Virus record (IMG/VR): IMGVR_UViG_3300023116_000175
Span: 1-33,452 of that record
Source: a virus
Length of the DNA stretch: 33,452 nt
Reading direction: 5' to 3' (one strand)
Made by a program: the position numbers and the translations under genes. Below the pieces are notes generated by a model. It was given only the letters and a program-made list of their open reading frames with translations. It searched no databases and was not told the DNA's origin. Positions 720 through 26,421 of this stretch are shown one piece after another; within the stretch, counting starts at the first letter, position 1; the number at the start of each line of letters is the position of its first letter.

Positions 720-1997
720 CTACGGTCTGTCCGTGTACGTTTGCTTCACGACCATCTCGCCAACCACCAGCGTAATTACTCGACCGCTTGCTAAAGTCGC
801 TTGGACGTCGTACTTGTAGCGTCCAGACATGATTTCGGTGTCAGTGTTTGTCAACTCCATACGAAACGCCTGCGTCCCTGTAGGCTGCGTAACGGTTGGC
901 GTAACCGACAGCGAGTCCATGTTGTTCTTCGCTGTAAACTTGAGCGTCGCACCTGATAGGCTTGGCCACTGGTCATCCGTTGTGCCTGTCCAGGTAATCG
1001 CACGCGAGTCGCTTGCACTGTAGTCATCACCTCGGACGATCGTGATCGTCGTGCCATCCTCTGCAATCACGCTACTGATCGTAACGTCGGTGCCACCGAT
1101 GCCAGCAATCACAGCATCCGCGATCGCTGCTTCGTCAACATCGGCTGTGGCCGTCGCGTCCACGCTGTTTGGATTGGTGAATGTCAGTTGATCGGTCTTG
1201 ACCTTGATCGCGTCCACGTTCAGATCGACCGTATCTATGCTGGATTGGCTTGCCAACGATGATACATCTGCTTTCAATGCGTCTGCGTTAGTGCCGGAAA
1301 CGAAGTAAGAATAAACACTCGCCGCTGTGATGTCGTTGAGTGCTGCAATGCTTGCTGCGGTTGCAAGTCCCGAGACATCGGCTTGGCTTGCTGTACGAGA
1401 TGCAGCGTCAGTTGTAACGGAATTAGTTACAGTTCCGACGGTCGTGACATTGGCGACAGTATCCGTTGCAGGATCGAAATTATTCAACGCAGCGATAGAC
1501 GCAGGGATGTCGGTTCCTGTATCGACGAGGATTGCCGCAATGCTTGCGTTATCAGGTGCAACTGTATTAGCACCATCGGTTCCACGCATGTCAGTGTTGG
1601 TCGTCGTTGTGGCTACCAAGGTGACGTTGGACACAGCACCGCCGGAAGTCGTGATTGCACCACCTGAAACGATGTCTGTTGCGGCTACTGTGGATCTCGT
1701 ACTTACAGCCACATCGAGATTCGTTAAGTCAGCATCAATCGTGTAAACGTTAACCGTTTGCGTCACAGCACCAGTCAAAACGAACGAGAACACGATATGA
1801 TCCCCGTTTGTCTCTGCTTGTGATAATGCAACTGACCACTGACCGTTGCCTTCATGCACTGCGGTCGCGGTTGTTTGTGCCTGTGTACCACCGTCGATTG
1901 TGTAATAGACGACTGGCGTACCTGTGATAACATCGCTTCCGTCAGTCTTGCTGATAGCTTGGAACGCAACGTATTGACCTGTTGTGTTTTTTCTCAC
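720..1997 (-). CDS. Tail fibre/shaft-like structural protein
   Basis: About 425 aa, rich in Ala, Thr, Val and Asp. The middle carries repeated short motifs (for example DNASIAAI, ATAASIAALND) typical of extended phage fibre or shaft proteins. The C-terminal 110 residues form a beta-rich unit beginning VRGDDY, similar in style to BppU-type baseplate or receptor-binding N-domains. I chose GTG at 1995-1997: it overlaps the LamG gene's TGA as GTGA and has an AGG 9 bases upstream. The longer TTG start at 2036 would overlap the previous gene by 43 bases. It probably sits at the distal tail and contributes to host attachment. The exact receptor role is inference. Confidence 0.6.
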   Translation of the reverse strand: MRKNTTGQYVAFQAISKTDGSDVITGTPVVYYTIDGGTQAQTTATAVHEGNGQWSVALSQAETNGDHIVFSFVLTGAVTQTVNVYTIDADLTNLDVAVSTRSTVAATDIVSGGAITTSGGAVSNVTLVATTTTNTDMRGTDGANTVAPDNASIAAILVDTGTDIPASIAALNNFDPATDTVANVTTVGTVTNSVTTDAASRTASQADVSGLATAASIAALNDITAASVYSYFVSGTNADALKADVSSLASQSSIDTVDLNVDAIKVKTDQLTFTNPNSVDATATADVDEAAIADAVIAGIGGTDVTISSVIAEDGTTITIVRGDDYSASDSRAITWTGTTDDQWPSLSGATLKFTAKNNMDSLSVTPTVTQPTGTQAFRMELTNTDTEIMSGRYKYDVQATLASGRVITLVVGEMVVKQTYTDRP

Positions 1998-2764
1998 TGT
2001 AGCGTACCTGCTAATTGAGTCGCCTGATTTGCCCAATACGGATTAAATGCTTGTGCGGTGGAGATCCGTACCGTTTGCTGTTTACGCTCAAACGGTGCTG
2101 ATGGGTTGAGGTAGATGCTTTTGATCTGACCATCAGAAATAGAACGATTGAAATACCTAACATCTGCAATGCTTCCGTTTAGTCTTGTTACGGATGCTGC
2201 ACCAGAGTTTCTACCAAAGTGCCATACTTGAGACGATGATGCGAAAGATCCACGAGCATAGGTATCCTCTAAATTTCCATCAACGTAGATGTATTGAGTC
2301 GAGCCATCATACTTGATCGCAACGTGCTGCCAATAACCACTTATGTTAGTAGTGCTTTTGGCTCCGGCGTCACCTGTGCCGAGTCGTTGAAAATAAAACT
2401 TGTTAGGTGCTGCACTTTTATGAAGGTTGAGAGTTACGGAGTTATTGAGACCGTGTTCGAATATCCTTGCAAAGGTGTCTGATGCTGCGTAATTTATCTT
2501 AACCCAGCAACACATCGTGAACGTATAAAACCGTTCTACCGATGCGGTTTGTATTTCGGTGTTCGAGAAGTCTACGGCGTGCCGTTTAGTCTTTTCGCAG
2601 TAGGAATAGATAGGACTTCCGGCAGTCCATTCGCCATGCAGCTTGTTTGAACTGTCAACGAATTTTGAAGTGTCAACGCAATTAGCAGACCACCACGAAC
2701 GCAAGCCAGCGTTTAACTGGCTCTGCGTATCTATTTGTAACGATGATGGCTTAATCAGATTCAA
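1994..2764 (-). CDS. LamG/concanavalin-like domain protein (tail)
   Basis: About 256 aa. It carries a laminin-G-like jelly-roll domain from about residue 20 to 220: a WW pair after LNAGLRS, the strand FTMCCWVKI, GYWQHVAIKYDG followed by YIYVDG, and the closing RYFNRSISDGQI segment, all classic LamGL landmarks. In phages such domains bind surface glycans. I prefer the TTG start at 2762-2764, just after the previous stop, with AGAGG 9 bases upstream and an LIKP-type N terminus common to phage LamG proteins. An ATG at 2833 would create a 68-base overlap. The gene is visibly more AT-rich than its neighbours, suggesting separate acquisition. Likely role: glycan recognition at the tail tip. Confidence 0.75.
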   Translation of the reverse strand: MNLIKPSSLQIDTQSQLNAGLRSWWSANCVDTSKFVDSSNKLHGEWTAGSPIYSYCEKTKRHAVDFSNTEIQTASVERFYTFTMCCWVKINYAASDTFARIFEHGLNNSVTLNLHKSAAPNKFYFQRLGTGDAGAKSTTNISGYWQHVAIKYDGSTQYIYVDGNLEDTYARGSFASSSQVWHFGRNSGAASVTRLNGSIADVRYFNRSISDGQIKSIYLNPSAPFERKQQTVRISTAQAFNPYWANQATQLAGTLQ

Positions 2765-2765
2765 C

Positions 2766-3254
2766 TTACTGAACCTCTGGCGGAACCGGCGTAAGAATGA
2801 ACTTATGGCTATCAGACGTTCCAAGCAAAGCATCAGCAGTGTTGTTATGGATCACTGGTGATACATAACGCTGAGTAATATGACAGACTCCACTGATGAT
2901 TAGGTTATCAGCAGCAGTCGTTGTTTGAACTGATGCAGCACCGAGGAATAGCAGGTTAGGGAGATCGTCTGTAGATCCTGCTGCGTCCGATGTCCCAACG
3001 TCACCATCGACATAAGTTCCGTCAGAAAAAGCTAGGTACAGATCGACTGTTTCACCTACAACCGGTGCAGTATCAAAGCCATAAATGACTAGCTTCCACT
3101 GATACTGATCTGCTCTAGGTGCAGCACCTAAGTCACCTTGTGCGCCAACACGAACACCATCGGCTGCAAGTGAGCCGAGATCCATTGTGTAGTCACCACC
3201 TGTGTCCGTCCAAGTCTTTGCGGTTTCTTCGTTGATGTAGACTTTGTTCGCCAT
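2766..3254 (-). CDS. Conserved phage structural protein, unknown
   Basis: Unrecognised protein of 162 aa, acidic and beta-rich, with no signal peptide or membrane segment. It contains repeated Gly/Asp/Thr turns and a hydrophobic core stretch QWKLVIYGFD. Start ATG with AGGAG 9 bases upstream. It lies directly before the LamG protein and after another small conserved protein, in the block between the lysis genes and the fibre. The composition and context suggest a virion or tail-tip component. No enzymatic motif was found. Confidence 0.5.
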   Translation of the reverse strand: MANKVYINEETAKTWTDTGGDYTMDLGSLAADGVRVGAQGDLGAAPRADQYQWKLVIYGFDTAPVVGETVDLYLAFSDGTYVDGDVGTSDAAGSTDDLPNLLFLGAASVQTTTAADNLIISGVCHITQRYVSPVIHNNTADALLGTSDSHKFILTPVPPEVQ

Positions 3255-10148: not shown

Positions 10149-10517
10149 TTGCGCACCAGTGTCACCCCTCACTTGGCTGTCCTTGTATGTTTTTGAGCGG
10201 ATGATTCGCTTGCTTGGCCACGTTCCGCGTCCCTTCCAGATCGTCTTGATGATGCCTTGGCTTTCCAAGTCATTGATGATCCGAGTGACATGGCGCGGTG
10301 AGACGTTGCAAGCCTCCGCAATTTGGTTGTTTGACTCGTTAAACTCTGTGATTCCCTCTGCTCTCTGTTGGCCCATGAGCCAGCAGTAGAGGATCACAGC
10401 GGTGTAGGTAGCGTTGGGGAGCGTCGGGAGCATGAACGTCGCCAGGTTCTTTCCAGTTCCGAATCTGGTGGTCGCGTCCGCTCGCTTGCTCTTTTTCTTT
10501 TTGTCCTGGTCATCCAT
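10146..10517 (-). CDS. Winged-helix DNA-binding protein, initiator-like
   Basis: 123 aa. After a basic N terminus and the segment LPNATYTAVILYCWLMGQQ, an HTH with wing is clear at about residues 60-100: NNQIAEACNVSPRHVTRIINDLESQGIIKTI followed by a GRG turn. This matches replication-initiator or MarR/GntR-like winged helices. ATG overlaps the helicase stop as TGATG. It follows primase and helicase genes and precedes a repeat-rich region, so origin binding is an attractive guess; autoregulation is equally possible. Confidence 0.6.
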   Translation of the reverse strand: MDDQDKKKKSKRADATTRFGTGKNLATFMLPTLPNATYTAVILYCWLMGQQRAEGITEFNESNNQIAEACNVSPRHVTRIINDLESQGIIKTIWKGRGTWPSKRIIRSKTYKDSQVRGDTGAQ

Positions 10518-11710
10518 CAGAACTCGTTCTCCTCCCCGAAGTCCCATTTCTTGATCGCTGACGAGAACGTCATTTGTGGCTTGTCAAACACCAAGTCGAT
10601 GTCGTTCATTTCACCGTGTCGGTTCTTCACCGCGTTCAGCACAACTTCCCGCACCCGCTCGTCGCTTTCGCTCTCACCCTTGTCTTTCAGCAGGTAGCAG
10701 GCGTCAGCGTTGAACTCGATCTCCCCAGATTCTTTGAAACTGGACATCGAAAGTTGCTCGCCTTTTTTGACCCGCGTCACGCTCGAGAGTGCAAGGATTC
10801 CCCAGTCGTCCATCGCCAGTGTTCGCAGTGTCCCCATGACGTTATTCACACCCACTCGAGGATCATCACCGCCGGCGAACTTCTGCAAATAGTCAATCAC
10901 CAGCAGGCGATTCCTGCCGCCCGTCAGCAGCCCGCAGAGAGCTTCCGTTGTGTACGGTGGCTCCATGATCTCGATACGATCCAAGAGCGGCTGGATGGCT
11001 TCTGCGGCCTCCTCCACTCGCTTCAGTTCGTCCGGCGTGACGTTGGCGAAACGTAGCTTCCCGCCGCTGACCTGCGATCTTCTGGTCAGCTCTCGACGCA
11101 GCAGCACCTCGAACGTCATCTCCGCGTTAGCGATGACCACCCTGGCTTTGCTGTCGTTCTCCAAAAGGCTGAAAACGTACTGCATCACCAGAGCAGTCTT
11201 TCCGGCACCAGGAGGCGCGCCGAGAATCGTGATCTTGCCTGGCCCGCACTCGAAACCGTCAAACGGATCGCCAGCGTCGTACAAGATGTCACCCTCGCCT
11301 CGGTATAGCTTGCCAATCAGTTCGCCGAGCATTCCAACGGGATGACTCAGCGGTGCAGGCTTCGCTGGTGCGACTGCCTGATGGCTCGTTCCGTTCCTAC
11401 GTTCCCACGGTGCAACATCGCTGCCAGCCAGCTCTCCCCGCTCGCCTGGTTGCTTGATTGCATCGTCGATCTTGTGTGCTATCTCGTAATCCGAGAACGG
11501 TGGCTCACATCTCGAGTTGTAGTCATTGGTGATGACGTCGATCGCTTCCTCGCGACTCAGACCGAAACCGATCACCAGTTTGCAAGCCACATTGAAAAAC
11601 TTTCCGTGACCATTTTCGCCGCTGATCGCCGGTTCGCATTTCGAGACATATAGCCTTGCACGATCGACGACCGACATCTGATTGGTCATCTGTTCGCTGT
11701 AAAGCATCAT
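10517..11710 (-). CDS. PriCT + RecA/DnaB-type replicative helicase
   Basis: 397 aa. Residues 20-90 (HGKFFNVACKLVIGFGLSRE, then EPPFSDYEIAHKI) look like a primase C-terminal PriCT domain. From about 150 there is a RecA-fold ATPase: Walker A GAPPGAGKT (164-172), Walker B LLVIDYLQKF with Asp273, then a sensor-like ILALSSV strand and the KESGEIEFNAD motif typical of DnaB-type helicases. Start ATG overlaps the primase stop (ATGA), with GGAGG upstream. The upstream gene supplies the catalytic primase domain, so primase and helicase functions are split between adjacent proteins with PriCT on the helicase side. It would unwind phage DNA during replication. Confidence is high for the ATPase. Confidence 0.85.
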   Translation of the reverse strand: MMLYSEQMTNQMSVVDRARLYVSKCEPAISGENGHGKFFNVACKLVIGFGLSREEAIDVITNDYNSRCEPPFSDYEIAHKIDDAIKQPGERGELAGSDVAPWERRNGTSHQAVAPAKPAPLSHPVGMLGELIGKLYRGEGDILYDAGDPFDGFECGPGKITILGAPPGAGKTALVMQYVFSLLENDSKARVVIANAEMTFEVLLRRELTRRSQVSGGKLRFANVTPDELKRVEEAAEAIQPLLDRIEIMEPPYTTEALCGLLTGGRNRLLVIDYLQKFAGGDDPRVGVNNVMGTLRTLAMDDWGILALSSVTRVKKGEQLSMSSFKESGEIEFNADACYLLKDKGESESDERVREVVLNAVKNRHGEMNDIDLVFDKPQMTFSSAIKKWDFGEENEF

Positions 11711-14940: not shown

Positions 14941-16095
14941 CTAGGTGGACACTTGGGATTTGCACATCCCCACCGGAAATCCACCTACATCAGCCATTTT
15001 CTTTGAAAGCGTGTCCTGCTGGACGTCTGCGTAATACCGCAACAGTATTTGACAATCGGCGTGCCGAGTCAATTTCTGTACCTCTTTTACAGATAATCGT
15101 GCGAGCATTTCAACGGCAAAAGTTCGCCGCAAATCATGAGCGGATGCGTATTTAATCAGTCTGCTAGTTCGCTTGGTCACGATCCTCGCGGCTTTCCCAG
15201 CTCCGGCGATCACTCGGCAAAGCCGGTGCGGTGTCTTGTGCCATCCTCGCGTCCCTCTGGCTCGAGCAATCCATTCCAGATCCCCTGGCACCGTCCGCAG
15301 CCAATCGACGGCTCTCTGCGTCAGCGGCACGTCCTCCTCGAGTCCATTTTTTTGGTCGGAGCAAAAAGCGATCACTGGCACCGTCTCGTCGATGTAGGCG
15401 ACGTGTCTGCCTGGGCCATTGTTGAAACTGAGCCGATGGCAATCATCGACCCGCAACCCCATGAACCTGGCCGCGTAGATGGCTCGCACGAACGATTCAG
15501 GATCTTCGCCGGTTTTGAGTAGCGGTTTGCCATTCAGCTCGACGTTGGCCCGTATAGCGGCCACCATGCGATCAATTTCCTCGCCTGTCAGACTGCGACC
15601 ACCAGACACGCTTTCCGCCTTATCTGCTTTTCGCTTTCGCCTTCGCGGTCGCTTGATCGCTGGCAGCATGTCCTGGTCGATCCCCCAGTTTACGATCGCC
15701 CAGATGGTCGCCATGTTGCTGGCAATCGTTGCGGATGCCAGGTCTTCCGTGACCATCTGGCGTTCCACATCTAGCAAGTGCGTCTTGTGCAGACGGCTGC
15801 ACCAGAAATCTCCGTGGATTTTCTCGAACCTGCGAAGCATCGTTTCCGCTTTGTCGATCGCCCGTTTGCCGAGTCCGTGATAGTAGAGCGTCCGCACCTG
15901 CTCCAAGAACTGCGACCATTTCAGATCCACGCCGACAGCGTTCAGTTCATCCTCGATTTCACGCCGAGCATCTTCGATCCGGTTTCTCGTTTTCCGGCCT
16001 TCGTAGCGTCTCTGTCTGGTTCTTCCTGCGAGATCCGTCCAGCGAAACACGATTCCGTCTCGACCGGCCTTGACTGTTTTTACTTTGATTTTCAT
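14941..16095 (-). CDS. int: Tyrosine recombinase integrase
   Basis: 384 aa from ATG 16095 (an upstream ATG at 16128 adds 11 residues). A basic N-terminal beta region (FRWTDLAGRTRQRR) may bind arm sites, a SAM-like core-binding domain spans about 55-145, and the catalytic domain follows. Active-site residues: Arg215 (GLRVDDCHRL), Lys249 (SDQKNG), His320-x-x-Arg323 (AHDLRR), His345 (LTRHAD) and Tyr354 (LLRYY). All six are present, so the enzyme should be active. It would recombine the tRNA-Met fragment 50 bases beyond its 3' end with the host gene. Its 5' end overlaps the excisionase-like ORF by 137 bases, an unusual length. Temperate lifestyle follows from this gene. Confidence 0.9.
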   Translation of the reverse strand: MKIKVKTVKAGRDGIVFRWTDLAGRTRQRRYEGRKTRNRIEDARREIEDELNAVGVDLKWSQFLEQVRTLYYHGLGKRAIDKAETMLRRFEKIHGDFWCSRLHKTHLLDVERQMVTEDLASATIASNMATIWAIVNWGIDQDMLPAIKRPRRRKRKADKAESVSGGRSLTGEEIDRMVAAIRANVELNGKPLLKTGEDPESFVRAIYAARFMGLRVDDCHRLSFNNGPGRHVAYIDETVPVIAFCSDQKNGLEEDVPLTQRAVDWLRTVPGDLEWIARARGTRGWHKTPHRLCRVIAGAGKAARIVTKRTSRLIKYASAHDLRRTFAVEMLARLSVKEVQKLTRHADCQILLRYYADVQQDTLSKKMADVGGFPVGMCKSQVST

Positions 16096-16294
16096 TTTCT
16101 GTAGAAGCGACCCAATCTTTGACAGCATCGAGACAGAACCAATGCGAACCGTTCACGGTTTGGTATAACTCTGGATGCTGTGCAATCCATTTCGGCCAGT
16201 AAGTATCGCTGTAGCCGAAAAGTTCTTTGATAAGATGACCTGGTACGAGTCCATGTTTGACGATCGGGTGATGCCAATCTAATCCATCAAGCAT
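15959..16294 (-). CDS. Excisionase-like HTH ORF overlapping int
   Basis: About 111 aa as an ORF, of which the first 65 look real: LVPGHLIKELFGYSDTYWPK, then LYQTVNGSHWFCLDAVKDWV, resembling an excisionase or AlpA-type HTH with a wing. The rest is basic and antiphase to integrase, so probably shadow. ATG at 16292-16294 follows AGG by 8 bases. If translated to its stop it overlaps int by 137 bases; int is in the +1 frame, so a simple -1 slip would not fuse them. It probably encodes the directionality factor for excision or a repressor of int. Confidence 0.5.
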   Translation of the reverse strand: MLDGLDWHHPIVKHGLVPGHLIKELFGYSDTYWPKWIAQHPELYQTVNGSHWFCLDAVKDWVASTENENQSKNSQGRSRRNRVSLDGSRRKNQTETLRRPENEKPDRRCSA

Positions 16295-17042: not shown

Positions 17043-17380
17043 TTTAAGCCTCCATGTCCTTCTCGGATAATGTCGTTAGCCGTCATTTCGGCCCAGTAAA
17101 GTTCAAACGCCACCGTCTGCTCGGTAGCTGCAAATCGGTGAAACACACCAGGTGGTACGTCGGTGTATTGTCCGGCAGTTAGGATCGTTATGTCGATCAG
17201 TCCTGATGGCTGCCAAACAGTAATCTCGAGTTCTCCGCTTTCAACCAGAAATCCGTTCCACTTGGTTTCATGCTTGTGCTTGCTGCAATAGCCACCGCAA
17301 TAAACACTGATCCGATGCAGCTCAAACATTGAACTGGCTTTGATAAGTTCGCTTTCGCCCCAGACTTTTCCAGTGATCAT
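17039..17380 (-). CDS. Cupin protein (sugar-metabolism type)
   Basis: 113 aa. Cupin motif 1 is seen as GYCSKHKHETKWNGFLVESGELEI (His at 36 and 38) and motif 2 as PPGVFHRFAA (His82). Two His plus the EGhL-like spacing fit a single-domain cupin of the WbuC/phosphomannose-isomerase or sugar-epimerase style. ATG overlaps the preceding stop as TGATG, AAAGG 7 bases upstream. Within a glycosyltransferase island it probably acts on a nucleotide sugar or sugar phosphate. Substrate unknown. Confidence 0.7.
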   Translation of the reverse strand: MITGKVWGESELIKASSMFELHRISVYCGGYCSKHKHETKWNGFLVESGELEITVWQPSGLIDITILTAGQYTDVPPGVFHRFAATEQTVAFELYWAEMTANDIIREGHGGLN

Positions 17381-18180
17381 CAAAACACCTTTCCGATCGA
17401 GCGTTCTAGTGGTTCTTCAATGTCGATAGAACCAACAGGGATCTGACGACGCAGTACCTCTCGAACGACAGCTCGTGACCCTTCTTTGCGTTGCAGCGGT
17501 GAGTGACCGAGTGCCTGGACAGGACGACCAGCCAATGCACACTCAAACAGAGATGTAGAGTTCGCAGCGATACAGAGCTTCGCATTAGCAACGTGCGGCC
17601 AAATCGTCGATCCACGGTAGTTCGGGAAACGAGTTTTGACGTTCACTCGTCGTTGCAATGGGTGAACCTTCCAGACGACTTTCTCTTTTGGCCACCGTCT
17701 GTCTGCTTCGTTGATAACATCCTGCATCGTGTGAAATGGCGAGTGATTGGTGATCGCATAGTCCTTTGGCAGTTGAAAAAAACCGGAAATCTGATCGCCT
17801 GGTTGTCCAATGTCGATGCCAGGTGCGTATCGCTCGAACTCGTTTTGCAGGTAAAGTTCGTCAGCGTCAGTGAGTTCCGGTACAGGTTCTCCGCGCAGCA
17901 GATCGCCACCGACGCTTCCGTTTTTGCTGATGATGTAATGCGACTTTTGCGATAGGTATCCGACCTCCATATAAAACACAGGCACGCCTGCGGATCGAAA
18001 CTGACCAGCCAGAGCTTTTTCCCTGGCGTTGTTTCCGTTCCAAATAATCAACGCATCGCATGTCGGTGGTTTCCTATCGACGACCAGTTCCGGTTTGTGG
18101 CCTCGCTTCGATAGAAAGTCTCGCAGCGGCTTGGTGTATCTGCGGTGGGCATTTTTACGTTTCCAAATCACGACTCTCAT
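17380..18180 (-). CDS. GT-B-like glycosyltransferase (capsule type)
   Basis: 266 aa from the ATG at 18178-18180, preceded by GGAGGT at 8 bases; the longer ORF upstream is shadow of the previous gene. N-terminal Rossmann half: RVVIWKRKN...ALIIWNG; C-terminal half: VVWKVHPLQRR, then CIAANSTSLFECALAGRPV, the donor-site pattern of capsule/Kdo-type and CMP-sugar-using transferases. It probably transfers a sugar to a phage or host surface polymer. It lies between a GT-A-like gene and a cupin. Confidence 0.6.
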   Translation of the reverse strand: MRVVIWKRKNAHRRYTKPLRDFLSKRGHKPELVVDRKPPTCDALIIWNGNNAREKALAGQFRSAGVPVFYMEVGYLSQKSHYIISKNGSVGGDLLRGEPVPELTDADELYLQNEFERYAPGIDIGQPGDQISGFFQLPKDYAITNHSPFHTMQDVINEADRRWPKEKVVWKVHPLQRRVNVKTRFPNYRGSTIWPHVANAKLCIAANSTSLFECALAGRPVQALGHSPLQRKEGSRAVVREVLRRQIPVGSIDIEEPLERSIGKVF

Positions 18181-18793
18181 GGAAACCGACCTCCTTGATG
18201 ATTCGACGATGTAATCGCTTGTTGCGGAGAAAATGTTCCTTGCTCGGTCGCTTGTGGTGAATGTGGTACAGCGGCCCGTTAAAACGCTTAGTGGCTGTCC
18301 GCCTAAGAAACTCCGTGTCCTCGCATCCCCATCCGTGGAATCTCTCATCCATCGGTGCGTCCATGAAGAAATCGTGCGTCACAACCCAGATGCCTGCCTG
18401 CGCCGGACGCCGCCTTGTTTGCATGAACCAACGTGCCGTGACCTTAGCCGCAGGATCACGATCCAAGATCCATTGCTTTTGAATGACTGACGTTGGACAG
18501 AACCGATTGTGTGGAATCAGCATCAATTCGTCATCCACTTCGTCAACTGCTCGACGTAGCGCATGATCGCACAAAAAGCAGTCTGCATCGCTGATGACGA
18601 TTTTGTGTCCTGGGAATCGTGCTACTGCTCGATTGATAACCTGCGAGCGGTTGAATGGCTTTTTGCTGCTATGCAGTTCGACGTGAACACTGTCATGACC
18701 AAGACGGTGCCGATAGTATCCGCACACCCAATCAAAACCAGCCTGACGGCTTTCGTTTGGCATCCAGGGAATGATGACTTTAACTGGTTGCAC
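18155..18793 (-). CDS. GT-A glycosyltransferase (Glyco_transf_7C-like)
   Basis: 212 aa. The nucleotide-sugar strand contains a DxD, VISDADCFL (near 68-74), and a later FHGWGCEDTEFLRR (near 158-171), the galactosyltransferase C-terminal signature with its catalytic acidic pair. HIHHKR closes the domain. Start GTG, GGAGG 6 bases upstream, two bases after the preceding stop. It would transfer a hexose or hexosamine onto a glycan or protein. Specific sugar unknown. Confidence 0.75.
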   Translation of the reverse strand: MQPVKVIIPWMPNESRQAGFDWVCGYYRHRLGHDSVHVELHSSKKPFNRSQVINRAVARFPGHKIVISDADCFLCDHALRRAVDEVDDELMLIPHNRFCPTSVIQKQWILDRDPAAKVTARWFMQTRRRPAQAGIWVVTHDFFMDAPMDERFHGWGCEDTEFLRRTATKRFNGPLYHIHHKRPSKEHFLRNKRLHRRIIKEVGFHESRDLET

Positions 18794-22488: not shown

Positions 22489-24489
22489 CTACTCGTTGAA
22501 AATTCCAATGACTCCGCCACCCATGTTCTTCAGGAAGCGATTCATTTGCGCCAACTGACGATTGGCAATTCGTTGCTCCTTTAATGCTGCCGGATCGCTC
22601 ACTTTTTGGATCGGTGGAGTTGCTCCGATCACTGCTGCACCGAAGGCTGAAAAAGTCCCCGTCTGACCTGGACGCTGACCGAGTTCTTCCTGCTTCGTTT
22701 CTTCTGGCTTTTCTGATTCGATGCCGAACTTCTCGTCGGTATCTTTCAAGAACTTGTCGAGAACCTTCGCTAGATCGTCATTTGCTTTTTCGATTTCATC
22801 GCTAGCCTTTGTGTCTTTCGGCTCCTCATCTTTCTTTTTGCCGGCATCACTTTTTGGCTTCTCTTTTTCAGGCACGACTCGATTTCTGCCATCTTCAATA
22901 ATTGCCCGCAGTTCAGCCATTCGGTCTTGTCGTTTTTCTGCGTCGGCTGCACGTTGATCTCGCCTCGATTGCTGGCGTCTGCGAACTTCATCTCCCATCT
23001 CGTATCCAAATCTACGCATAGAATCGAACGGCGAATGGATGCCAAGATTGTTAGTAGCGAACTGCAAGCCTGGGTCTGTTTTCTTTAACGGCACGCGAGC
23101 GCCGATAGTCTTAACGCCGCTGCCAGATGTGAAATGATCGAGTGCGTTTTGATACATCTCGTTGTAAGCGTTTTCAAATCGGCGAACGACGCTTTGCAGT
23201 AGGTCTGCCAGTCCGGTAACCAGATGCGCGATGTCACGACCGATGTTCGATGTTGTGTCGAGAACGAAATCGACGAACGACACCCACGCTGATTTCAGTT
23301 CATCAGTCAGATCGAGCCAGACCAATTCCACAGAAGCAGCGAGAAGATTCCAGGCCCCCTGGATGTCACCGGCTGCTAACGCTTTGCCAATCGCATCCAT
23401 CGACGCTTTCACTGCTTCCGCTAGCGGCCCGAAACGCTCTTTGAAAGCATCTATCGCTCGACCGCCGATGTCGGTGTATTGCACAATCGCATAACCAAGC
23501 GCTGCAACACCAGCTAATGCCAAGCCTACTGGCGAAAGTATTAGGCCAATGCCTTTTGCGAGAACACCAAACGCAATTCCGGCTGCTGTCAGAACTCCGC
23601 CAAGTCCGACTAAAGCGACACCGACACCACCGATGGCGATCATTCCCATTCCCAGAACACGCACCATCTCTTGATTTTCTTTGACGAAGGTTTTCAGAAA
23701 GCCAACGCCGTTGTTTAGATAACCTAAGAAATGAGCGAGCGGATCAAGCAGCGGTGCGCCAAGAGAAACAGCAACGTCGGTCAAAATTGCTTTTAACGCT
23801 TTGAGTCGGTTTGCAAAACTGCCGCTAGTTCGCAACGCATCGCCCTGCGCGGCAGTGGTTCCACGCATGATGATTGTCAGCCGAGCTTGTGCCTTCTGTG
23901 CTTCCGTCGCGGCTTTCGGGTCGATGCTGTTCTGCATCAGTTCTTGGTTGACTGCTGTCTGCGACAGAATCACACCATACTTTTTCATCACTTCGCCGCT
24001 TCCGGTCATCGCGGCCATCAGATCCTCGAAAGTCTTTTCTGGTGACATATTGTTGAAAGACGCCAGGTCAATCGCCAGAGCTGTCAATTCCTTGCTCATG
24101 TCTCTGGCTTTTTCATCCATAACACCCATCGGCACCAGTAAGTCTTGCATACTACTGAGCATCGACATCATGCTTTGCTCGCTGACGCCCATCGCTGTGG
24201 CTGTCGTCTCTCCCCAAGCCTGCATAGATTTGGCTGCGTCACCAAAAACCGTCGTGAACTTTCCCATCGTTTCTTGCATCTGCGATCCAGCTCTGATCGC
24301 AAGTGCCAATGGTGCGGCCATAGCTGCGGAAATAGCACCGCCGAGTCGCATGATGCTTTGGCCGTGACTTTTCAACGAATTAGAAAGCCTGTTCAGATCT
24401 GCCTGCACCCCCTTCGCACCGGCTGAGATCCGGTTTCGGATGCCGATCTCTACATAAGCATTTCCGGCTTTGATGTTTTTAGTTGCCAT
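22489..24489 (-). CDS. Tail tape measure protein
   Basis: 666 aa, the longest tail gene. The TP901-type core is visible: ALAIRAGSQMQETMGKFTT, VFGDAAKSMQAWGE..., then DLMAAMTGSGEVMKKYGVIL. A hydrophobic block at about 270-345 (MGMIAIGGVGVALVGLGG onward) is the membrane-active stretch used in genome entry. The C-terminal 200 residues are Lys/Glu-rich and helical. Start ATG with GGAG upstream. Its length suggests a tail of roughly 100 nm by the usual proportionality, an inference. It is wrapped during assembly by the chaperone pair encoded just upstream. Confidence 0.9.
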   Translation of the reverse strand: MATKNIKAGNAYVEIGIRNRISAGAKGVQADLNRLSNSLKSHGQSIMRLGGAISAAMAAPLALAIRAGSQMQETMGKFTTVFGDAAKSMQAWGETTATAMGVSEQSMMSMLSSMQDLLVPMGVMDEKARDMSKELTALAIDLASFNNMSPEKTFEDLMAAMTGSGEVMKKYGVILSQTAVNQELMQNSIDPKAATEAQKAQARLTIIMRGTTAAQGDALRTSGSFANRLKALKAILTDVAVSLGAPLLDPLAHFLGYLNNGVGFLKTFVKENQEMVRVLGMGMIAIGGVGVALVGLGGVLTAAGIAFGVLAKGIGLILSPVGLALAGVAALGYAIVQYTDIGGRAIDAFKERFGPLAEAVKASMDAIGKALAAGDIQGAWNLLAASVELVWLDLTDELKSAWVSFVDFVLDTTSNIGRDIAHLVTGLADLLQSVVRRFENAYNEMYQNALDHFTSGSGVKTIGARVPLKKTDPGLQFATNNLGIHSPFDSMRRFGYEMGDEVRRRQQSRRDQRAADAEKRQDRMAELRAIIEDGRNRVVPEKEKPKSDAGKKKDEEPKDTKASDEIEKANDDLAKVLDKFLKDTDEKFGIESEKPEETKQEELGQRPGQTGTFSAFGAAVIGATPPIQKVSDPAALKEQRIANRQLAQMNRFLKNMGGGVIGIFNE

Positions 24490-24495
24490 TCGTTT

Positions 24496-25032
24496 TTAAC
24501 TCCCCACCACATTCGCCCAGGGTGAAAGGATGTTTCCCTTTTCTGTTTCTATCTCGAGTGCTGGTGTCATAAACGGACGCGGCGGATAAATTGCCGTTCT
24601 GATGCGTCGTTTCTGTCCAGGACGCAAACGCTTTCTAAGATCGCGTCTGTACCATCTGCCATCTGAAAAAGATTGCGTTTCATGTATGCGAACTTGGTCA
24701 CCTAGCTCCATGATGCCAGGGACAGGAATCGAGCCTGTCGATGTCATGTTCACTTGGTTCAGTTTGACCGGCCCGACAATGCCGCCCTGGATTCGCGGAT
24801 CGTAAGCAAAGAGGATCGTTTTCAGTCCGTATTGCTGCGAATGGATGCTCGGTGGCTTACCTGGCAAAGATGGCTTTTTTCGCCTCCTGAGAAGCGATCT
24901 AGCTCGAGTACGCACGAACGCCAAAGAGCGACTGATGGCTCGTCGTTTTTCTTTGTCGATTGCATTGTGAACGACTTTGCGATCAAAGAAAAAGTCTTTC
25001 ATGTCAAACGTCAGTCGAAATGTTCCTGCCAT
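24496..25032 (-). CDS. HK97 gp10-like/minor tail protein
   Basis: 178 aa, strongly basic. The N-terminal KEKRRAISRSLAFVRTRARSL helix and central PGKPPSIHS, then a late MELGD and a C-terminal PPRPFMTPALE, match the gp10/virion-morphogenesis style of head-tail or tail-completion proteins. It overlaps the chaperone frame's stop by 29 bases; the SD is weak. Its place before the tape measure agrees with a tail-assembly role. Confidence 0.6.
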   Translation of the reverse strand: MAGTFRLTFDMKDFFFDRKVVHNAIDKEKRRAISRSLAFVRTRARSLLRRRKKPSLPGKPPSIHSQQYGLKTILFAYDPRIQGGIVGPVKLNQVNMTSTGSIPVPGIMELGDQVRIHETQSFSDGRWYRRDLRKRLRPGQKRRIRTAIYPPRPFMTPALEIETEKGNILSPWANVVGS

Positions 25033-25731
25033 TCTTTTTCGCCATCAGTTCGCGGTAAATTTTCCCAGGATCGCACGACTGCTTAGTTTGTGTTTTCCGT
25101 AACGGGTGGAAATCGTTACGAGAAAAACGTCCCTGAGCGTGCAGGTTTGCGTTCATCGACAACAGTTCTGCCGTGTGATCCCAATCCGACCGCATCTTGC
25201 TTTCCACTGCAAAATCCAGTTCGCGAATCGTGAACGCCCACGGTTCTAAGCCTGCTAACGCTGCTAACTCGGCGACCCATTGCCATCGTCGCCCAGCATC
25301 ATTTCTTCCATCTCCTTCGTCGCTTGCTCTAAGAGTGAATCGACTTTCCCACTTTTCAGTAGGTCGTCCAATCGTCGCTGCGCTTTTTCCATCGCCTCGA
25401 TCGAGCTTGCGGTTAGGCGAGCCAGTACGGTCTGGCCTAACCTCTGGAAAAAATTTTCCAGTTCTCGCAAGAAAGAGATGCTAGCCGACGCTGCGACTCC
25501 TTCACCATAAAACCGCAGCTCCAACTCCTCTGCGTCGATGCCACGATCCTTTGCCTGTTCCTCGACTAACAAAAAGACAAACGCGAGCCGATCGGTCAGA
25601 CTGTTCATCACTTGCAAATGATGCTGAGTGTCGAGCAGATCCAATCCGAGCTTTTCGCGTAGTTGCCTAACCTTTCCGATCGTCAGAGCGATGTTCCAGG
25701 CTTGTCCTTCAGCGTCTTTGAAACTTTCCAT
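25004..25731 (-). CDS. Tail assembly chaperone, -1 frameshift product (gpGT-like)
   Basis: The downstream frame (stop at 25004) has no suitable early start, yet encodes a conserved-looking domain: RRWQWVAELAALAGLEPWAF, then TIRELDFAVESKMRSDWDHT, and SRNDFHPLRK. It lies in the -1 frame of the chaperone ORF and stays open from 25447 onward. Just after its last upstream stop (TAG at about 25490) sits T TTT TTC, in phase. A -1 slip there would join about 93 residues of the first ORF to about 149 residues of the second, giving a product of about 242 aa. This is the gpG/gpGT arrangement of siphoviruses. A GTG at 25207 could give a short independent product, but would lose the conserved N-terminal part. 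Confidence 0.7.
25264..25731 (-). CDS. Tail assembly chaperone (gpG-like)
   Basis: 155 aa. The opening FKDAEGQAWNIALTIGKVRQLREKLGLDLLD is a typical tail-chaperone N-domain, followed by helices (TDRLAFVFLLVEEQAKDRG) and FLRELENFFQRLG. It binds the tape measure to prevent premature polymerisation. The gene encodes a TTTTTTC slip site at 25453-25447; most ribosomes should continue to TAG 25264. It overlaps the upstream small ORF by 49 bases. Confidence 0.75.
   Translation of the reverse strand: MESFKDAEGQAWNIALTIGKVRQLREKLGLDLLDTQHHLQVMNSLTDRLAFVFLLVEEQAKDRGIDAEELELRFYGEGVAASASISFLRELENFFQRLGQTVLARLTASSIEAMEKAQRRLDDLLKSGKVDSLLEQATKEMEEMMLGDDGNGSPS
25447..25453 (-). promoter_or_regulatory. -1 frameshift slippery heptamer TTTTTTC
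   Basis: T TTT TTC in the zero frame (AAT TTT TTC CAG) of the chaperone ORF, matching X XXY YYZ. The surrounding CTGGAAAA-TT-TTTTCCAG is an 18-base near-perfect palindrome. The -1 frame has no stop from here to 25004. Confidence 0.7.
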
Positions 25732-25928
25732 TCTTTGCTCTCCGGTTTGCTCTCATCTGTTTTGGGTGAACTAACAGCCTGCCGACAGCGCGAGAGCATT
25801 TCGCTGTTTGCATAGACGACCTGGGAACGTGGCCCCGCTCCACTTTGATCGCACCAATCGCGGAGAGCGCCTTTCGGCATTTGCTCCGCGAGGTCTGCTA
25901 GTTCACCTCGTGTAATTGCGTCAAACAT
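25683..25928 (-). CDS. Small protein next to tail tube, unknown
   Basis: 81 aa. The first 50 residues look folded (ITRGELADLAEQMPKGALRD) and the last 30 are Lys/Ser/Pro-rich and overlap the chaperone gene by 49 bases. Start ATG with AGGT 8 bases upstream. It sits between the tube protein and chaperone, a common place for a small accessory tail gene. No family is recognised. Confidence 0.45.
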   Translation of the reverse strand: MFDAITRGELADLAEQMPKGALRDWCDQSGAGPRSQVVYANSEMLSRCRQAVSSPKTDESKPESKEWKVSKTLKDKPGTSL

Positions 25929-25938
25929 TTGACGTTAC

Positions 25939-26421
25939 CTATGGTGTGGTGCCTGTGAGTGCATCGAAGTCCACTGATGCGCCAGCCGATGTGTAAGCGT
26001 CAGCCTTTGCAAACGGGATCGTGACGACAACGCCATCGTTTCCGTTAGCGGTTTCGCTAAACTCACCGAGAAGAACCGGACACTGCCAGCCAGTCGAATC
26101 ACCATCAGTGATCGGGCCGTTCAGATGACCGAGTTCAATGATGTCTCCGGCATCTCGAGCGGTTTCGAGAGCTGAATAAACGCTGTCAGTTCCCTGCTTG
26201 CGAACGTACTCAAAAGAGCCGCTGAATCGCTTGTAGCCAGGAATGTTTGCGGTTTCGCTTGCACCGTGGAACTCGATCTCGGACAGGTTCGGCCCGCGAT
26301 TGATTTGCACGTTCCTGGCTCGAACGATTTCTGTCCAGGTCTGCGATGCGTGCGTCGCACTGTTGTAGTAGAGGTATGTTTCCTTGCCGGAATACGCACC
26401 ACGCGAAAGATCCGATGCCAT
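25939..26421 (-). CDS. Major tail tube protein
   Basis: 160 aa, beta-rich: WTEIVRARNVQINRGPNLSE, FHGASETANIPGYKRFSGSF and a C-terminal VVVTIPFAKADAY strand followed by a DFDALTGTTP-like tail. Size, beta content and position between the terminator and the chaperones are those of a siphovirus tube subunit. Start ATG after AGGAG at 7 bases. It polymerises around the tape measure. Confidence 0.75.
   Translation of the reverse strand: MASDLSRGAYSGKETYLYYNSATHASQTWTEIVRARNVQINRGPNLSEIEFHGASETANIPGYKRFSGSFEYVRKQGTDSVYSALETARDAGDIIELGHLNGPITDGDSTGWQCPVLLGEFSETANGNDGVVVTIPFAKADAYTSAGASVDFDALTGTTP

Follow-up and report, generated by a model that had tools for sequence, protein, structure and literature searches.

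The window (the whole stretch of 33,452 nucleotides that was analysed) derives from an uncultured virus record and carries a cluster of tail genes on its minus strand. The first of these encodes a major tail protein (25939..26421, minus strand; PHROG 1407, E = 3e-5) and is followed by an 81-aa ORF (25683..25928, minus strand) that has no family match of weight and overlaps the start of the next gene, here designated G. G (25264..25731, minus strand) begins with an ATG, encodes 155 aa and, based on this ORF and 117 distinct homologues, is assigned as a probable tail assembly chaperone read in the zero frame. A second coding region, T, lies in the -1 frame relative to G and extends beyond it. 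T overlaps by 29 nt a 178-aa ORF (24496..25032, minus strand) that has no family match, although a similar ORF also follows T in the near relatives L003, L135 and L144, and next is the gene for the 666-aa tape measure protein (22489..24489, minus strand; PHROG 28, E = 4e-23). In the window and in the relatives checked, G and T are flanked on their upstream side by the gene for the major tail protein and on their downstream side by that for the tape measure protein.

Within G, the sequence T TTT TTC (25447..25453, minus strand) is formed by the last base of codon 93 together with codons 94 and 95. The surrounding codons, GAA AAT TTT TTC CAG AGG, place this slippery heptamer in the X XXY YYZ phase on the minus strand, as read in an earlier note made from the sequence alone, which had located it at 25453-25447 and proposed that it directs a programmed -1 frameshift. 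The -1 frame is closed upstream of the heptamer by a TAG (25481..25483, minus strand) that is 27 nt away, not about 36 bases as that note had it, and is then without a stop from 25480 through the stop codon that ends at 25004, so that the frame is indeed open from the heptamer to 25004. A ribosome shifted at the heptamer would add 147 aa before this stop (25004..25447, minus strand) to give a GT protein of 242 aa, and a homologous extension is present in relatives. The claim that this frame lacks an early start also held, as the first ATG, GTG or TTG after the heptamer is a GTG (25205..25207, minus strand) located within the conserved T domain. No in-phase X XXY YYZ heptamers were found in G beyond T TTT TTC and A AAT TTT, the latter positioned one codon upstream (25450-25456) and overlapping the former. 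Taken by itself, the heptamer in the window is only moderately surprising; the probability of a TTTTTTC within the permissible stretch is 0.14 by synonymous shuffling and 0.007 by codon-order shuffling.

The T domain, defined by an alignment of 57 relatives and recognizable by the motifs RRWQWVAELAALAGL...WDHTAELLSMNANLH...DFHPLR, occupies 25004..25291 (minus strand). In 36 of the 57 relatives this domain matches Pfam PF06223 (Phage_tail_T, the lambda gpT family), with the best of these matches at 8.4e-06 and 26.6 bits, barely above the curated cut-off of 25.9 bits. The T domain of the window itself falls short of a match to PF06223, though it can be aligned with the T domains of the relatives. 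Neither G nor T of the window gave useful results in scans against PHROGs and Pfam, with no match of weight for G in either database, and direct profile comparison (hhalign) with lambda G and lambda T was not significant. The predicted structure of G is compact and mostly helical, with two N-terminal strands and a mean pLDDT of 93. When the models predicted for G and T were used in fold searches, all matches were weak, those of G including proteins named tail assembly chaperone, with no solved tail chaperone among the matches listed. Because these chaperones have no Pfam or PHROGs model, save for the weak T-domain matches, gene callers would presumably miss the T part.

Relatives were sought by family-wide scans seeded with conserved peptides distant from the slip site. 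These yielded 45 loci from genome contigs plus 265 from viral contigs, and 80 of the latter were retained. A tblastn search with G, T and their relatives against phage records found no relatives, and a scan with a DNA pattern, the heptamer plus stem, was too loose and its results were set aside. With the loci found earlier, there are 131 loci with the same layout, encoding 117 distinct G proteins, and nearly all of the 131 have a T-like domain in the -1 frame. The earlier note had suggested the conservation of the heptamer in relatives as a check, and this proved to be extensive. TTTTTTC is present at the homologous codons in 82 of the 117 distinct G proteins, and in 34 of the 43 clusters formed at 70% identity, and U UUY is kept at the site in 115. 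Of the 84 sequences that encode Phe-Phe at the site, 82 use NNT TTT TTC, whereas codon usage would predict this for ~2% of Phe-Phe pairs. When sequences sharing 60-92% identity were compared pairwise, synonymous differences were present in 38% of comparisons upstream but in 3% at the slip site, with 23-28% for the region of overlap; as pairs and sequences are related the counts are not independent events, but the contrast between the upstream region and the site is large all the same. Judged from these sequences, the frequency of TTTTTTC across the relatives is far beyond chance. Two relatives have no U UUY at the site. In L200, there is an A AAA AAA a few codons downstream and, similarly placed in L234, there are C CCT TTG and T TTG GGG.

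A stem-loop that the earlier note did not include is predicted to begin 4 nt after the heptamer (25411..25442, minus strand). Identified by fold energy and supported by the relatives, it has an 8-bp stem in which GGTTAGGC (25442-25435) pairs with GCCTAACC (25418-25411). The 42-nt stretch at the hairpin folds with -17.7 kcal/mol, corresponding to z = -3.4 relative to shuffled sequences. When folding energy was profiled along G in 42-nt windows, the minimum in sequences with TTTTTTC fell directly after the slip site (mean MFE -16.8), and simple stems of -8 kcal/mol or lower follow the site in 85 of the 117 sequences, versus 7, 10, 13, 16 and 23 sequences when five control offsets were examined. 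Across the relatives, the stem is mostly separated from the site by 4-7 nt. RNAalifold detected no compensatory pairs in six near relatives. The exact stem differs between clades and its register is shifted in L189, and the conserved element is therefore a hairpin at a set distance rather than one fixed stem. These predictions point to a stimulatory structure, enriched across the relatives, a few nucleotides past the heptamer.

In 28 of the 117 G proteins, the homologous codons are TTC TGC. This subclade (L137-L143, L150-L170 and others) consists mostly of phages or prophages of Phycisphaerales. The TTC TGC is part of a G GGT TTC in 18 of these sequences whereas, in the remaining ten, G GCT TTC or G TCT TTC precedes the TGC and there is no longer a tandem slippery heptamer. 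In this subclade, too, the profile reaches its greatest stability in the 42-nt windows after the slip site, with a mean MFE of -23.1, and the members inspected have a strong 8-bp hairpin, GCCCGAGG/CCTCGGGC, 7 nt downstream of the site. Frameshifting in the subclade could perhaps depend on slippage of just one tRNA-Phe, on U UUC, with assistance from the strong conserved hairpin, a suggestion that we make tentatively and would rate at somewhat under an even chance.

The locus very probably encodes a tail assembly chaperone pair of the gpG/gpGT type joined by -1 programmed frameshifting, an assignment already made in the earlier note and one now backed by the fact that the heptamer, the -1 frame and the hairpin are all conserved, by the gpT-like domain in relatives and by the gene position. 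Both chaperones of a long-tailed phage would then share one start codon. The majority of ribosomes would read G to its own stop codon, generating the 155-aa protein, while a minority would be delayed by the stem-loop when tRNA-Phe occupies the P site as well as the A site over U UUU UUC. Aided by the hairpin, the tandem tRNA-Phe would slip back by one base to UUU UUU and translation would continue in the -1 frame. The resulting GT would contain 95 aa of G plus the 147 aa of the extension, with about the last 95 aa forming the T domain, and the ratio of G to GT would be set by the rate of the shift. The occurrence and rate of the shift, and the functions of the two products, are inferences. In lambda, G and GT function in tape measure protein binding and in tube protein recruitment (PMC5009743) and, by analogy, the tape measure protein would be coated by G, with the tail tube protein recruited through the T portion of GT.

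T could, alternatively, be translated separately from an internal start, at the GTG at 25207 or at a rare ATT or CTG, with the heptamer being incidental. A start at this GTG would generate a 67-aa ORF, and 16 of 114 relatives do contain a usual start codon in the interval from the slip site to the T motif, but initiation at the GTG would remove the first part of the conserved T domain, and ATG, GTG and TTG are all absent from the same interval in the other 98 relatives. As separate initiation also offers no account of the hairpin or of the selection acting at the slip codons, we consider it very unlikely. It seems slightly less likely again that slippage at the T6 run is by RNA polymerase rather than the ribosome and results in mRNAs that are one base longer or shorter. 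The site is a homopolymer of six Ts, and the run is longer in L144, but T6 is short for transcriptional slippage, and the 18 sequences with GGGTTTC and the 10 others of the subclade have no T6 at the site and yet retain a hairpin at the spacing of ribosomal frameshifting. That the frame break is a sequencing error or a sign of gene decay, with G and T in reality one continuous gene or two unrelated genes, might be suspected from a homopolymer at the break in one uncultured contig, but is hardly credible and is already excluded by the relatives, as the same frame relation is present in more than 100 loci from separate assemblies, including L144 from the genome record NZ_SJPK01000012 of Rhodopirellula solitaria, and the G and T products are both conserved.

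Frameshifting between G and GT, as proposed here, has counterparts in several known phages. With lambda gpG/gpGT, the locus has in common that G and T follow the major tail protein gene and precede that of the tape measure protein, and that the T domain is in the -1 frame; a match to the T-family profile (PF06223) of gpT is present in relatives. The lambda heptamer is, however, GGGAAAG, and lambda G and T, as annotated, have a 19-nt overlap, whereas the window has T TTT TTC and its G extends for ~60 codons beyond the heptamer; the two G proteins have no detectable sequence similarity. The difference from GGGAAAG had been correctly drawn in the earlier note, but U UUU UUC was already on record, as a putative -1 frameshift at UUUUUUC has been reported for 17.5/17.5* of the Bacillus phage SPP1 (PMC6316719). 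As described, SPP1 17.5/17.5* has the same heptamer and the same -1 shift in a chaperone pair called analogous to gpG/gpGT. Slippery runs of T6G, T7G or T7C, with T6G that of P2, have been documented for P2 E/E+E' and the P2-like Smp131 (PMC3931495). As described, these too involve a -1 shift within tail genes, at a slippery run rich in U, but were reported from P2-like myophages. The heptamer itself is therefore not new, given UUUUUUC in SPP1 and T6G in P2; what appears to be new is the protein family and the replacement of the slip site in one subclade. In the literature searched, we did not find this protein family, its breadth or the subclade's slip-site replacement described, in planctomycetes included. 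With this interpretation, the lambda-type G/GT frameshift would extend to phages and prophages of a large group, mainly linked to Planctomycetota, in which the slip site and the hairpin that follows are conserved among more than 100 relatives outside the coverage of named databases. The family also provides a natural series of variants of a single slip site (U UUU UUC, U UUU UUG, G GGU UUC and G GCU UUC) within the same protein context, which should be useful to measure the ribosome's requirements.

The 45 loci in genome contigs are from Planctomycetota nearly throughout, and a planctomycete is the host in nearly all of those among the 131 loci for which a host is assigned. The host of the phage is apparently a planctomycete bacterium. 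Three members, L182, L188 and L147, are in MAGs labelled Nitrospira, Vicinamibacteraceae and Verrucomicrobiae, respectively, possibly as a result of mis-binning or of a broader host range. No tRNA or Rfam families were detected in the window. Elsewhere in the window, a tyrosine-type phage integrase domain (PF00589) is encoded at 14941-16128 (minus strand), and the phage may therefore be temperate. There is also a gene for a DnaB-like helicase (PF03796) at 10517-11710 (minus strand), one for a protein with a Laminin_G_3 lectin-like domain (PF13385) at 1994-2833 (minus strand) and, at 17380-18348 (minus strand), a region with a weak match, slightly below the cut-off, to Capsule_synth (PF05159).
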